Shown one piece after another: positions 19,941 to 40,969 of a stretch of 64,000 nucleotides of DNA. Within the stretch, counting starts at the first letter, position 1; the number at the start of each line of letters is the position of its first letter. Below the pieces are notes generated by a model. It searched no databases, had not been told where the DNA came from, and saw only the letters and a list, made by a program, of their open reading frames with translations. The DNA comes from Hyphomonadaceae bacterium (GTDB taxonomy: Bacteria; Pseudomonadota; Alphaproteobacteria; Caulobacterales; Hyphomonadaceae): positions 248,001-312,000 of the forward strand of contig JALHLU010000001.1 of assembly GCA_022844345.1 (NCBI GenBank). The letters are read 5' to 3'. The position numbers were made by a program, and so were the translations under genes.

Positions 19941-20023
19941 TCGGGCGCCGGTTCCGCATGCCCTCCGCATGCCCTGATCCATCGGCTAACTTCCCATAAA
20001 CCCGGAGCGCGCAATGTCTCGCG

Positions 20024-20941
20024 ATGCTCGACACGCGCCGGATTGAAGCTTTTCTTGACACGCTGCGGGCGGAGCGCGGGGCGGCGGACAATACGATTGA
20101 GGCGTATCGGCGGGATCTTGAGGATGCGTCCTCCTTCCTGCGGGCCAATCGGTCTTCGCTGATTGATGCGGGCGAGCGGGACCTTTCGGCCTTTGTGCGC
20201 GACCTGCATGAGCGGGGCATGTCGGCGGCGACGGTGTCGCGGCGGCTTTCGGCGTTGCGGCGGTTCTTTCGTTTCCAGCTGGGCGAAAATGAGCGGCAGG
20301 ACAATCCGACCTCGCGGCTGGATGGGCCGGCCACGCGGCGCGATCCGCCTGACGTGCTGTCGCGCGAGGAGGTCTCGCGGCTGATTGCGGCGGCGCAGGG
20401 AACGGAGGCTTCCGACCTGCGGACCATCTGCCTGATCGAGCTGTTGTATGGGGCGGGGTTGCGGGCGTCGGAATGTTGCGACCTGCCCTTGTCGGCGCTG
20501 CCGGCGCCGGGGGCGACGGTGTTGATCGTGCGCGGCAAGGGCGACAAGGAGCGGATCACGCCGCTGGGCAAGCCGGCGCTGATGGCGCTTAAGAATTACA
20601 TGGCCGTGCGCGAGCAGTTCCTGCCGAAGTCGGCGGTGCGGACGGCGGCGATGCGGTATGTTTTTCCATCGCGCGGGGCTGGCGGGCGGCTGACGCGGCG
20701 CAGGCTGGGGCAGATACTGGAAGACCTGGCGATGAAGGCGAATATCTCGCTTGAGCGGGTGACGCCGCACGCCCTGCGCCACGCTTTCGCGACGCATCTT
20801 TTGTCTGGCGGGGCCGACCTGCGGGCGGTTCAGCTTCTGCTGGGCCACGCGGATATCTCGACCACGCAGATCTATACGCATGTGGTGACAGACGAGCTGC
20901 GCGACCTGCTGGAAGCGGCGCATCCGATGGCGCGTGCTTGA
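20024..20941 (+). CDS. xerD: Tyrosine recombinase XerD
   Basis: 305 residues. It resolves chromosome dimers at dif with XerC and FtsK. All catalytic residues are visible: Arg in GAGLRASE, Lys in GKGDKERITP, His-x-x-Arg in HALRHAFATH, His in LLGHADISTT and the nucleophile Tyr in TQIYTHV. The N-terminal SAM-like core-binding domain fills the first 100 residues. It is followed by a 139-bp palindromic element. Confidence 0.95.
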   Translation: MLDTRRIEAFLDTLRAERGAADNTIEAYRRDLEDASSFLRANRSSLIDAGERDLSAFVRDLHERGMSAATVSRRLSALRRFFRFQLGENERQDNPTSRLDGPATRRDPPDVLSREEVSRLIAAAQGTEASDLRTICLIELLYGAGLRASECCDLPLSALPAPGATVLIVRGKGDKERITPLGKPALMALKNYMAVREQFLPKSAVRTAAMRYVFPSRGAGGRLTRRRLGQILEDLAMKANISLERVTPHALRHAFATHLLSGGADLRAVQLLLGHADISTTQIYTHVVTDELRDLLEAAHPMARA

Positions 20942-20978: not shown

Positions 20979-21117
20979 TTGAGACAGACCCCCACCTGTC
21001 CGCCCCCTAAGAACGGGGCGGGACCCTGTTGGGCGAGCTTAACCAATTTTGAAGGACGGTAGTCCAAGCAGGTTCCGCCCCGTTCTTAGGGGGCGGACAG
21101 GTGGGGGTCTGCTTCGG
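20979..21117. repeat. 139-bp palindromic element, family A copy 1
   Basis: Two 36-bp inverted arms (20986-21021 and 21075-21110) match exactly and enclose a 53-bp core. Each arm begins AGACCCCCACCTGT and then forms its own hairpin, CCGCCCC-loop-GGGGCGG. The outer flanks are TTGAGAC on the left and GCTTCGG on the right. It lies between the convergent ends of xerD and the amidohydrolase gene. Related to copies at 34787 and 38955. The core here runs in the opposite sense to those two. Confidence 0.92.
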
Positions 21118-21150: not shown

Positions 21151-22842
21151 TCACTCACCATCTTCGCGGCTGTAGACGACCTTTCCGCTGACCACGGTGA
21201 TCGCGGGGTCGGCCGTGAGGATGCCGGCTTCGGGGATGGTCATGATGTCGGCGGTGAAGCCAGTGAAGTCGGCGAGCTTGCCGGGTTCGATCGTGCCGAG
21301 GTCGTTCTCCTGGAAGGCGGCGATGGCCGGCCAGAGGGTGAACATCTTCAGCGCCTCTTCGCGCGTGACGGCCTGTTCGGGATGCCAGCCTTCGCCGGAA
21401 TTGCCCTTGAGGTCCTTGCGCGCCACTGCGGCGTAGAACTCGATGCGCGGATCGCCCTGCTCCACTGGAGCGTCAGAGCCGCCCGCGATGATGGAGCCGG
21501 CGTCGATCAGCGCGCGCCAGGCATAGGCGCCGGCGAGACGATCGGGCCCGAGGCGCGCCGGGGCGAAATAGAGATCCCCGATGGCGTGGCTGGGCTGCAT
21601 CGACGGGATGACGCCCAGAGCCTTGAAGCGGGGAATGTCCTCGACGTGCAAGATTTGCGAATGCTCGATGCGCCAGCGCTTGTCGGGGCCCGCGACACCG
21701 GCGTCGGCGAAGGTCTTTTCCATCCAGTTGAGGAGGAGACGGTTGCCCTCATCGCCGATGGCGTGGAAGGCGACCTGGATGTTGGCGCCGGAGGCTTTGC
21801 GCAGGATCGCCAGCGTTTCGGCTTCCTGGGCGATCTGGAGGCCGCTAATATCCGGGCGGTCTGAATAGGGCTCGGTGAGCAGCGCGCCGCGCGAGCCGAG
21901 GGCGCCGTCCATGTAGAGCTTGATTGCTTTCGTGGTGACGAGGCCGTCTTCGCTAGCGCCCCAGAGGCCGCCCTCGGTCATCATGTCGAAGGCGGCGCCA
22001 TCGACGGCGTTGTAGATGCGCATCGGGACTTCACCGGCAGCCGACATGGAGTTGAGTGTCGCCATATGCGGGCCGATGGCCGACATGTTGTGGAGACCCG
22101 TCCAGCCGAGGCCGACTTCGCGGGCCATGGCCTTGGCGTAGGTGGCGCGGACCTGCGCATCGGTGGGGGCGGTCATCAGGGCGGCCATCGGAGCCATGGC
22201 GTTGTCGATCAGCATGCCGGTGGGCAGGCCCTGGGCATCGACCTCGATGCGGCCGCCTGCGGGTTGGGATGTGGGCTTGCCGTCGAGCGCGACGGCTTTC
22301 AGAGCAGCTGTGTTGGCGACCATGGCGTGGCCGTCTGCGCGTTCGAGCACGACGGGGCGTTCGCCCGTGACGGCGTCGAGATCGTGGCGGGTTGGGAAGC
22401 GGCCTTCGGGCCAGTGGGTTTCGATCCAGCCGCGGCCGATGAGCGGCTGGCCGGGCGGGAGTTCGTCCGAGGCCTCCATCACGGTGAGAACGAGATCGGC
22501 GATCGAGTCGACATCGTCGAGGTTCAGCGTCTGCTCGCGCTCGCCAATCCCGTAGAGATGGGCGTGGGCGTCGGTGAAGCCGGGATAGAGAAAGGCGCCG
22601 GCGAGATCGATTTTCCGGGTCGCCTCGCCTGCGGATTTCAGCAGCTCCTCGGCGGCGCCGACTTCGACGATGCGGCCATCCTTCACTGATACCGCGGTTG
22701 CAGGCAGCTGGCCATCGACGCCGGTGTAGATGGTGGCGTTGTGGAATATCGCGTCTGGCGGATTTGCGGGCGCGTTTTCGCAGGCGCTCAAGCCCATGAT
22801 GGCAAGTGCGAGAGCTGAGATTTCAGCTAGCCTAAGTCGCAT
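21151..22842 (-). CDS. YtcJ-like amidohydrolase, lipoprotein
   Basis: 563 residues, amidohydrolase family 3. After a lipoprotein signal (GLSAC|EN) come the first metal-binding motif PGFTDAHAH, HAIGDEGN, EHSQILH and the closing GGSDAPVEQGDP. This set identifies a metal-dependent periplasmic hydrolase of the YtcJ type; the substrate is unknown. GGAGGGG precedes the ATG at 22842. The frame is open 44 codons further upstream, but those codons precede the signal peptide. Confidence 0.88.
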   Translation of the reverse strand: MRLRLAEISALALAIMGLSACENAPANPPDAIFHNATIYTGVDGQLPATAVSVKDGRIVEVGAAEELLKSAGEATRKIDLAGAFLYPGFTDAHAHLYGIGEREQTLNLDDVDSIADLVLTVMEASDELPPGQPLIGRGWIETHWPEGRFPTRHDLDAVTGERPVVLERADGHAMVANTAALKAVALDGKPTSQPAGGRIEVDAQGLPTGMLIDNAMAPMAALMTAPTDAQVRATYAKAMAREVGLGWTGLHNMSAIGPHMATLNSMSAAGEVPMRIYNAVDGAAFDMMTEGGLWGASEDGLVTTKAIKLYMDGALGSRGALLTEPYSDRPDISGLQIAQEAETLAILRKASGANIQVAFHAIGDEGNRLLLNWMEKTFADAGVAGPDKRWRIEHSQILHVEDIPRFKALGVIPSMQPSHAIGDLYFAPARLGPDRLAGAYAWRALIDAGSIIAGGSDAPVEQGDPRIEFYAAVARKDLKGNSGEGWHPEQAVTREEALKMFTLWPAIAAFQENDLGTIEPGKLADFTGFTADIMTIPEAGILTADPAITVVSGKVVYSREDGE

Positions 22843-22954
22843 GAAGGCCCCTCCGGAATTAGGTGGCACGTTAGCGATGGCTGGGGTGGGCGCAAGCGGC
22901 TCGGGCGTTCGAGGCACGGGTTCGCGGTCTCGCAGGTGAAGCCTGCGAGTTGCG

Positions 22955-23578
22955 TTACGGGGTGGCTCCTTCAATCGAGTGTGGGGTTGCTCGCACGAGG
23001 GTTGCGGCGAGAGCTGTGAGCGCGGCCTCGTGGTTCGACGGACGCAACGCCATGCGATGCATGGCCTTGCTGCTCACCATGAGGCCTGACTGAAAGCTCG
23101 ACACACCCACAGCCTCATGGTGAGCAGCATGGCGGAGCCATGCGTCCGTCGAACCATGGGCTCCGAGGGGATCGGCGTTGCGGAGCTGCTTCAGCCTGGC
23201 GGCGTGGGCTTGCGCGCGTGCTTCCATTTCGGTGCAGGCGATGACGAGGGCGGCGATGCGAGCGATGAGTTCGGGCAGGCTCTTGGCGTGGGTGAGGTGT
23301 GGCGTGCAGCGCTTGTGCGGCAGGCCGGGGCGGATGCGGGCGATCTGGCAGCCGCGCATGGCGATCCAGAGACGGAGGGAGTCTTCGGCGTCGAGGATCA
23401 GCAGTTCGAGCTGGAGGCGAAGCGCAGGGTTGATCAGGAGTTCGCTGAACGTTGCTTCGTCCTTCGCGGCGTGGACGAGTTGCAGCGCGCGATGACGTAG
23501 ACCTTCGGCGACCTGGCGGATGGGGTCCGCCGGGAAGAGCGCGCGCAGGATGATCCAGAGCCAGGACATGGGGAGCAT
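22955..23578 (-). CDS. Hypothetical protein with repeat-derived C-terminus
   Basis: 207 residues, no family recognised. Residues 1-140 are Leu-, Ala- and Arg-rich and probably helical. Residues about 141-183 are encoded entirely by a 126-bp palindromic repeat (23031-23156), so the C-terminus probably arose by insertion of the repeat and read-through to a later stop. Whether the gene is functional is uncertain. The sequence upstream of the ATG (23578) has GGGG near it but no strong ribosome-binding site. Confidence 0.5.
   Translation of the reverse strand: MLPMSWLWIILRALFPADPIRQVAEGLRHRALQLVHAAKDEATFSELLINPALRLQLELLILDAEDSLRLWIAMRGCQIARIRPGLPHKRCTPHLTHAKSLPELIARIAALVIACTEMEARAQAHAARLKQLRNADPLGAHGSTDAWLRHAAHHEAVGVSSFQSGLMVSSKAMHRMALRPSNHEAALTALAATLVRATPHSIEGATP
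23031..23156. repeat. 126-bp palindromic repeat (family C) inside a reading frame
   Basis: Inverted arms share TGGTTCGACGGACGCA at the outer ends and GCTGCTCACCATGAGGC at the inner ends. Between these, the left arm has the hairpin CCATGC/GCATGG and the right arm ATGGC/GCCAT, so each arm folds on its own. One copy in the window. It overlaps the C-terminal third of the hypothetical gene at 22955-23578. Confidence 0.8.
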
Positions 23579-29120: not shown

Positions 29121-29254
29121 CGCTCATTCCGACGAAAGTCGGAATCCAGGGCGGGTCTGGAGGCTTGTTCCGACGTTGGGCTTCGCTTGCTGCCCAAATC
29201 CCGCGGTACCGGGCAGACCGTTCCTGGGTCCCGACTTTCGTCGGGACGAGCGCG
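29121..29254. repeat. Palindromic doublet, family B copy 1
   Basis: Two inverted arms, each a hairpin with a 4-base loop. The left arm has ATTCCGAC/GTCGGAAT around GAAA, and the right arm GTCCCGAC/GTCGGGAC around TTTC (GAAA on the other strand). Both carry CGCTC-type outer ends and CCAGG/CCTGG inner ends. About 134 bp, in the gap between the helicase and S4 genes. The second copy is at 40819. Confidence 0.8.
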
Positions 29255-33653: not shown

Positions 33654-34712
33654 ATGGAATTCCTTTCGGGCACCTTCAAAACGCTGGCGGACGCCTGGGC
33701 GTCGCTGGAAGCGGCGCTGGCCGGCTCCCCCTCCCTGGCGGGCATCGGGCTGTTGCTGGCTGTAGGCGCGGGCGTCGCCGTCGCGGTGCTGGCGCTGGCC
33801 GGAGTGGTGCGGCTTGGCTTCGCCATGCGCCGGGCCGCCATCGCGAAGGGCATCAAGCGCCAGAACGAGATCGGGGCCCGCATCGTGGTCGTACGCGGCG
33901 GCGGCGGCCGCCGGAGCGGTATCGCAGGCTTCCTCCACAAGGCGGTCGATACGCACCTGAAGGACTACATGTTCGGCGGACCGTTCTCGGTGATGTCCTA
34001 TCCCGGCAGCCTGGATGGCGATGCCCGCGCGCAGCAGCTGCTGCAGCGGACCGAAGCAGACGTGATCATCTGGGCCGAAGCGCCGCGCGGAACCAAGGGT
34101 TCGGCGCGCATTCTTGCCAGGCCGACCAACACATTCGAGGCGGCGCGCCAGCCGGTGACGTTCGCGATGCCGAAGGAAAAGTCTGCGTGGAACGATCCGC
34201 TGGCCCGCGCGATGGCCTATGCCGCCGCCAAGCAATTCCGACCCGCGCTGGGCCGGCCGCAGGATTTCCGCGCAGAGCGGCTGCAGCCCGTGGTCGAAAC
34301 CGTTCTGTCGATCCTGGCGCAGAAGCCGAAGGCGGACCCCGCCCTTCTGGCCGAGATGGTGGACGACAGCTCAGCTGGCGCTCTGCAGCTGGCCTTCGCA
34401 GGTGATGATGCGTGGATCGACAAGTCGGTCGAGATTGCACGTTCGACGCTGGGCGAGATCAACCGCTCGGCGGCGCCGGATCGCTGGATCGCGGCAAATA
34501 TCACGCTGGGGCGTGCGCTGCGCCTGAAGGCCGAGAAACGGTTTGATCCTGTGATGCTGCGCGAGGGCATTGCCTACCTGACCGAGGCGCTGGAGGCATT
34601 GCGCTCGGAGCCGCGACTGAAGCTGGCGGAATCGGCGGCGCAGGCCATCGGCGAGGCGCAGAAGCTTCTAGGCACGCGCCGAAAATTCTCGATCTCGGGC
34701 GGCGGGATTTAG
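33654..34712 (+). CDS. Membrane-anchored protein with helical C-terminus, unknown function
   Basis: 352 residues. One strong transmembrane segment is at about residues 27-55 (LLLAVGAGVAVAVLALAGVV). The cytoplasmic or periplasmic remainder begins with a Gly/Arg-rich strand (IVVVRGGGGRRSG) and contains FGGPFSVMSYPGS and a later helical, TPR-like part (residues about 210-340). I do not recognise a family. The ATG at 33654 follows GGGA at some distance; an earlier frame start (33549) lacks support. Followed by a family A palindrome. Confidence 0.7.
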   Translation: MEFLSGTFKTLADAWASLEAALAGSPSLAGIGLLLAVGAGVAVAVLALAGVVRLGFAMRRAAIAKGIKRQNEIGARIVVVRGGGGRRSGIAGFLHKAVDTHLKDYMFGGPFSVMSYPGSLDGDARAQQLLQRTEADVIIWAEAPRGTKGSARILARPTNTFEAARQPVTFAMPKEKSAWNDPLARAMAYAAAKQFRPALGRPQDFRAERLQPVVETVLSILAQKPKADPALLAEMVDDSSAGALQLAFAGDDAWIDKSVEIARSTLGEINRSAAPDRWIAANITLGRALRLKAEKRFDPVMLREGIAYLTEALEALRSEPRLKLAESAAQAIGEAQKLLGTRRKFSISGGGI

Positions 34713-34786
34713 CCGCCCGGATTTCGGCGACAATAGCCGCAATTCCTGCTGCTCAGGTCCTAGATGTGCAGCAACCCCGATCATCC

Positions 34787-34925
34787 TTGAGACGGACCCC
34801 CACCTGTCCGCCCCCTAAGAACGGGGCGGAACCTGCTCGCACTACCGTCCTTCAAAATCGGGCAAGCTCGCCCAACAGGGTCCCGCCCCGTTCTTAGGGG
34901 GCGGACAGGTGGGGGTCTGGGTCGG
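34787..34925. repeat. 139-bp palindromic element, family A copy 2
   Basis: 35-bp inverted arms (34795-34829 and 34883-34917) around a 53-bp core. Flanks are TTGAGAC on the left and GGGTCGG on the right. The reverse complement of the core matches copy 1 closely, with about six differences in 53 positions. It lies between the convergent ends of the membrane-anchored protein gene and the SET-domain gene. Confidence 0.92.
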
Positions 34926-34958
34926 CACTCGCGGCTGGAGCGACAGTCCGCGTTATCG

Positions 34959-38954: not shown

Positions 38955-39093
38955 TTGACACAGACCCCCACCTGTCCGCCCCCTAAGAACGGGGCGGAAC
39001 CAGGTTGAGAGAACTTACCTCACTTCGAAGGGCGATGATGCAACAGGGTCCCGCCCCGTTCTTAGGGGGCGGACAGGTGGGGGTCTGGCTCGG
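38955..39093. repeat. 139-bp palindromic element, family A copy 3
   Basis: 36-bp inverted arms (38962-38997 and 39051-39086) around a 53-bp core. Flanks are TTGACAC on the left and GGCTCGG on the right. The core ends resemble copy 2 in orientation, but its middle has diverged. It lies between the start of the SDR gene and the end of the lipoprotein gene. Confidence 0.92.
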
Positions 39094-40796: not shown

Positions 40797-40818
40797 CGAA
40801 TACGCCCTACCAACACGA

Positions 40819-40942
40819 CCCGCTCGTCCTGACGAAAGTCAGGACCCAGGAACAATGGCGCGACGCGCACTGACTTGAAGCCACAAGCCTGAACAAGCCG
40901 CACCACCCGCCCTGGGTCCTGACTTTCGTCAGGACGAGCGGG
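40819..40942. repeat. Palindromic doublet, family B copy 2
   Basis: Both arms contain the hairpin GTCCTGAC/GTCAGGAC with a GAAA loop (TTTC on the other side), outer CCCGCTC/GAGCGGG ends and inner CCCAGG/CCCTGGG ends. The two arms differ from the family B copy at 29121 at paired positions that keep the stem. It lies between convergent genes. Confidence 0.85.
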
Positions 40943-40969
40943 ACAAGGTGAAAGGTCTCGGACCTAAAC

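Follow-up and report, generated by a model that had tools for sequence, protein, structure and literature searches.

A dispersed palindromic repeat of Hyphomonadaceae in which core orientation is independent of flank orientation

How can the core of a repeated palindrome come to lie in either orientation while the outer ends of the element keep their own? The question is raised by the 139 bp at positions 20979-21117 of the 64,000-nucleotide stretch of Hyphomonadaceae DNA analysed here (the window). They form an imperfect palindrome, copy 1 of a repeat that we call family A, made up of TTGAGA, a 37-bp arm, a 53-bp core, the inverted arm and CTTCGG. A tyrosine recombinase gene (20024-20941) has its stop codon 37 bp before copy 1, and a convergent amidohydrolase-like gene (21151-22974) ends 33 bp from it. 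The element is predicted to fold into a single long hairpin at -61.7 kcal/mol as DNA, compared with -24.2 for shuffled sequences. A search of copy 1 for promoter- or terminator-like sites gave none, and the only Rfam match at gathering score between positions 20000 and 40000 was a tRNA, with none to family A. Two further copies occupy 34787-34925 and 38955-39093, and a second palindrome family (CGCTCATCCCGACGAAAGTCGGGATCCAGG type) is found in the window at 29121-29252 and 40806-40955. The parts of the three family A copies are as follows.

20979-20984, + strand: copy 1 left outer end, A-type, TTGAGA, with TTGA at 20979-20982
20985-21021, + strand: copy 1 left arm, 37 bp, perfect inverted repeat, containing the hairpin CCGCCCCCTAAGAACGGGGCGG
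21022-21074, + strand: copy 1 core, 53 bp, orientation + (the ACTTACC...GAAGG direction)
21075-21111, - strand: copy 1 right arm, a perfect 37-bp match to the left arm, inverted
21112-21117, + strand: copy 1 right outer end, B-type; TCGG (21114-21117) reads CCGA inward
34787-34794, + strand: copy 2 left outer end, A-type, TTGAGACG
34795-34829, + strand: copy 2 left arm, 35 bp, perfect
34830-34882, - strand: copy 2 core, orientation -, the reverse complement of the copy 1 core
34883-34917, - strand: copy 2 right arm
34918-34925, + strand: copy 2 right outer end, B-type, TCGG
38955-38960, + strand: copy 3 left outer end, A-type, TTGACA
38961-38997, + strand: copy 3 left arm
38998-39050, + strand: copy 3 core, inner part as in copy 1, outermost bases as in copy 2
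39051-39087, - strand: copy 3 right arm
39088-39093, + strand: copy 3 right outer end, B-type, TCGG

A preliminary description of this DNA had reported TTGA in the left flank and TCGG in the right flank of all three copies, and the window sequence bears this out. It was also right that perfect arms enclose a 53-bp core in copy 1, except that the arms measure 37 rather than 36 bp, and that this core is the reverse complement of the one in copy 2, with which it agrees at 48 of 53 positions when inverted and at 30 of 53 when read directly (five mismatches, not about six). Copy 3, which had been assigned the orientation of copy 2, shares it only in the outermost core bases (GGAACC...GGGTCCC). Its inner core of about 30 bases is oriented as in copy 1, with a leave-one-out score against all copies of 22.7 compared with at most 8.1 for shuffled cores, and the core as a whole matches copies 1 and 2 equally well either way round (35/53 in each case). 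The scrambling of orientation in copy 3 thus involves more than a single nested level.

To place these copies in context, a BLAST-type search of their own genome (G000; 4.19 Mb in 18 contigs) recovered some 27 full copies along with several half copies and four core-less palindromes of 51 bp. A related species, G002, is syntenic with G000 at about 85% identity and contains about 25 full copies. It is the only other genome of the genus with many copies, G006 having two weak ones, and no match was found in the other 102 genomes of the family or in plasmid and phage collections. When the arm sequence was scanned against public genomes, almost all hits were in Hyphomonadaceae. A contig filed under an Acidobacteriota MAG (JAKQTR010000008.1) has a typical family A element and is likely to be misbinned Hyphomonadaceae DNA. 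Family A copies are short, multicopy and non-coding and have terminal inverted repeats, as do MITEs and other small palindromic mobile repeats, and we regard the family as a new addition to the short interspersed palindromes, one restricted to its lineage.

End and orientation statistics were computed over 51 copies, nearly all from the two genomes. Modeling the outer ends with two profiles assigns each element an A end, GCGT[GT]GAGA (GCGTKGAGA), and a B end, TGCCGA, with a log-likelihood of -1114; shuffling the ends 60 times gave -1151 ± 7, and -1130 at best, so the asymmetry exceeds chance. The TTGA and TCGG of the window copies are a local variant of this degenerate motif and not the form found in most copies. 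Measured against the ends so defined, core orientation is shown to be independent of flank orientation (18/11 against 15/7, Fisher p = 0.77), with 24 copies in one phase and 25 in the other (p = 1), and cores that are 91-98% identical occur in both phases. Flanks and cores that always switch together, the outcome named beforehand as refuting an inverted core, are thus absent. With the copies split about evenly between the phases, there is no ground for calling either one original, and the idea that copy 1 is the exceptional, inverted copy has no basis. A further asymmetry lies at the arm-core border GGRACC, which has A on one side (GGAACC) and G on the other (GGGACC) in 41 of the 51 copies, independently of the inner core (23 vs 18) and of the flanks (20 vs 19). 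Base-pairing of the outer ends, through the T-G wobbles in TTGA/TCGG, was considered as a cause of the asymmetry and rejected; flank and arm-border asymmetries have no common strand preference (20 vs 19).

Independence across copies leaves the question of whether cores turn at a fixed locus. Nine loci have a full element at the same place in G000 and G002, and for these the core orientation was called relative to neighbouring genes, with the counterparts of C16 loci corrected for their opposite strand.

C16:55.8k: core inverted, flanks retained; arm class and core changed together
C16:66.4k: core inverted, flanks retained; 17 bp of right flank identical between the species; arm class and core changed together
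C2:322.5k: core inverted, flanks retained
C6:159.6k: core inverted; the outer-end call changes too, flanks unclear
C6:164.4k: core unchanged
C6:231.3k: core unchanged; outer ends too weak to compare
C16:52.4k: core unchanged
C1:104.3k: core unchanged
C2:288.9k: core unchanged; the G002 counterpart has the same 2-bp deletion in both arms

The nine loci thus comprise three with an inverted core and retained flanks, one with an inverted core and unclear flanks, and five with no change, and the flipped pairs have orientation scores of 8.6-24 against a shuffled-core maximum of 8.1. The earlier suggestion of a core inverting between arms with the outer flanks left in place is to this extent supported at orthologous positions of two species. 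At two of the three clear flips, however, the arm class changed as well, a sign of substitution by another copy no less than of plain inversion. Between the species, orthologous cores share 59-81% identity, which is roughly what unrelated copies show (71 ± 6%); most are no closer to each other than to paralogs, and the cores of each genome cluster with their own paralogs. For the window copies themselves an in-place flip is not demonstrable, because G002 has a full counterpart of none of them: it has no element at the locus of copy 1, a family B palindrome at that of copy 2 and a short core-less palindrome at that of copy 3. At the copy 2 locus, the palindrome standing in place of family A in the G002 counterpart of 34712-34957 is of the CGCTCATCCCGACGAAAGTCGGGATCCAGG type.

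The arms show a related pattern. Within an element the two arms are 95.9% identical, compared with 84.2% when arms are paired at random (maximum of 88.5% in 5000 permutations), and arm class differs between orthologs, a TAAGAAC tip in G000 corresponding to a TAAAC or TCCT-type tip in G002. The arm class has also changed in a half element at C6:231.87k that is truncated in both species and therefore could not transpose as a unit. Variants common to both arms, the change of arm class and the clustering of cores by genome together amount to concerted evolution of family A.

We lean towards an explanation in which exchange mediated by the arms, through template switching, gene conversion or both, makes core and flanks independent. 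Since the two arms mirror each other, a strand in the course of replication or repair could exit and re-enter the element via either one. A template switch inside one element would render its two arms identical and invert the core, and pairing with another copy elsewhere would replace arms and core in either orientation. Either process would need the arms alone. The locus-specific outer ends would lie outside the exchanged stretch and keep their own orientation, so that core orientation relative to the flanks would become random over time. Conversion from another copy would be required at C16:55.8k and C16:66.4k, because arm class and core changed together there. Template switching between inverted-repeat arms is known to homogenise the arms and invert spacers, reversibly (PMC8604942), and Higgins 1988, cited in PMC3116915, put forward gene conversion for REP sequences. 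The independence of core and flanks, the orthologous flips, the matched arms and the change of arm class at shared loci all support such exchange. The core probably flips by ordinary exchange between mirror-image arms and not by means of a dedicated switch, and we infer both the molecular route (a template switch or RecA-type conversion) and the lack of regulated switching. Several observations count against this explanation. No orthologous pair is a clean inversion with the rest of the sequence unchanged, and since orthologous cores are at the identity of unrelated copies, their turnover could also reflect loss and re-insertion. Frequent arm homogenisation should in addition erase the A/G border mark, so that its retention is unexplained by homogenisation alone. 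Finally, the core is 53 bp long, whereas the template-switch inversions described in PMC8604942 involve spacers of a few bases, with shorter ones favoured.

The main rival, which we consider possible but rather unlikely, is that a MITE-like unit of arms and core inserts into a directional target with halves A and B, landing in either orientation because its ends are identical, and that the core never flips in place; loci common to the two species would then have been emptied and refilled, or hit twice. Consistent with insertion, a young, near-identical subfamily of G000 that includes copies 1 and 2 and is present on contigs C1, C3, C6 and C16 has unrelated flanks and both phases, and its members stop matching one another at the arm ends; A and B are therefore not part of the travelling unit. 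Uninterrupted joined A-B patterns also outnumber those of a reversed control in the two genomes (21 against 5 and 24 against 2); several of them recur as likely coding strings, GCGTTGATCGGCA for example, and we take this pattern as uninformative. Against insertion, many loci are occupied or have remnants at the same position in both species, and clean empty sites were not found in G002, where unoccupied orthologous loci contain deletion remnants or unrelated sequence instead of an intact A-B target. Apparent empty sites at two G000 loci (C6, L100 near 8.7k and 10.0k) and one G002 locus (the counterpart of C16:59.5k) proved to be such remnants, bounded by short direct repeats like CCCAC or AGGTG. 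No exact target site duplication is visible by eye at family A elements, and the Y1 transposase (PF01797), the one transposase family searched, had no match in G000 in a profile search whose controls behaved as expected. Insertion by itself, moreover, predicts no flips at loci filled once, and the truncated half element changed its arm class as well.

The position of copy 1 beside a tyrosine recombinase gene, together with the perfect inverted arms around the invertible segment, might suggest that a dedicated enzyme such as this XerD-like protein inverts the core as a regulatory switch, the site-specific inversion raised in the preliminary description. We find this very improbable: the gene has the look of a housekeeping XerC/XerD, no recombinase gene adjoins copy 2 or copy 3, copy 1 lacks a recognisable promoter or terminator, and the roughly 27 copies are dispersed, with cores that are mostly old and diverged. 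No dedicated invertase for family A was found. Equally hard to credit is the view that the flank similarity is chance and provides no common orientation for comparing cores. The motif is indeed degenerate, and TTGA and TCGG are missing from most copies, but one A and one B end per element occur far more often than shuffled ends allow, and the orthologous flips, for which neighbouring genes serve as the reference, do not depend on the motif; over the 51 copies the chance reading is already refuted. Somewhat less remote, but still doubtful, is a family whose core re-orients freely in place at every chromosomal site, its asymmetric ends and A/G arm mark being kept, and in which homing-like conversion associated with DUF559 nuclease genes may homogenise the copies.

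At two non-orthologous loci, DUF559 nuclease-like genes have a full family A element on one side and a half element on the other; the two genomes together contain about eight DUF559 genes. The regions concerned are:

G000:C6:231260-231934
G002:C23:488.3-489.0k
G002:C1:21.4-22.4k

Family A resembles several known classes of repeat without coinciding with any of them. Like ERIC/IRU, Correia (NEMIS) and other small palindromic intergenic repeats or MITEs, it is an imperfect palindrome of roughly 100-150 bp, intergenic, non-coding and present in tens of copies; unlike them it has a different sequence, no recognised TA duplication, asymmetric ends and a core that is random relative to those ends. 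Its two conserved inverted arms around a spacer and its extragenic location recall the REP, REPIN and BIME elements associated with RAYT (REPIN layout, PMC3116915), from which it differs by its 37-bp arms, its copy number of about 27 instead of hundreds, the missing Y1 transposase in G000, and ends of the types described above in place of a GTAG or CGTC tag. The CGTC-tagged palindromic repeats of alphaproteobacteria (PMC3733652) likewise have a distinct motif at one end, but the family A end reads CGT followed by G or T, and family A is three to four times longer. Similar in behaviour are template-switch spacer inversions (PMC8604942) and the small hairpin inversions of chloroplast genomes, in which arms are homogenised and the spacer flips in place, reversibly; family A is distinguished by its long spacer, by being a dispersed repeat family and by also needing replacement from other copies.

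The flip and flop forms of the AAV terminal repeat likewise involve a nested palindrome in which the inner part can face either way with respect to the outer one. Those are ends of a viral genome with hairpin replication, whereas family A is a repeat located within the chromosome. If our favoured explanation of arm-mediated exchange is correct, template-switch inversion would reach, in bacteria, loops much longer than the few-base spacers of PMC8604942, since here a 53-bp spacer would turn between arms of 37 bp. With tens of copies per genome in two syntenic species, family A offers a natural test bed for how often the interior of a palindrome is flipped or overwritten, and the orientation of such elements is an unstable phylogenetic or insertion marker.

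Some features of the distribution are worth recording separately. Elements are clustered in one syntenic region (G000:C6:159-232k and G002:C23:409-530k) and not evenly spread. The solid 51-bp core-less palindromes (L053 near 325-375, L054, L056 and L059) look as though deletion between direct repeats of the two arms produced them, and at C6:221.0k a short core-less form in G000 corresponds to a full element in G002. Finally, the copy at G000:C2:288919-289089 has an assembly gap of ten Ns within its core, which could reflect repeat collapse or mixed orientation in the reads.
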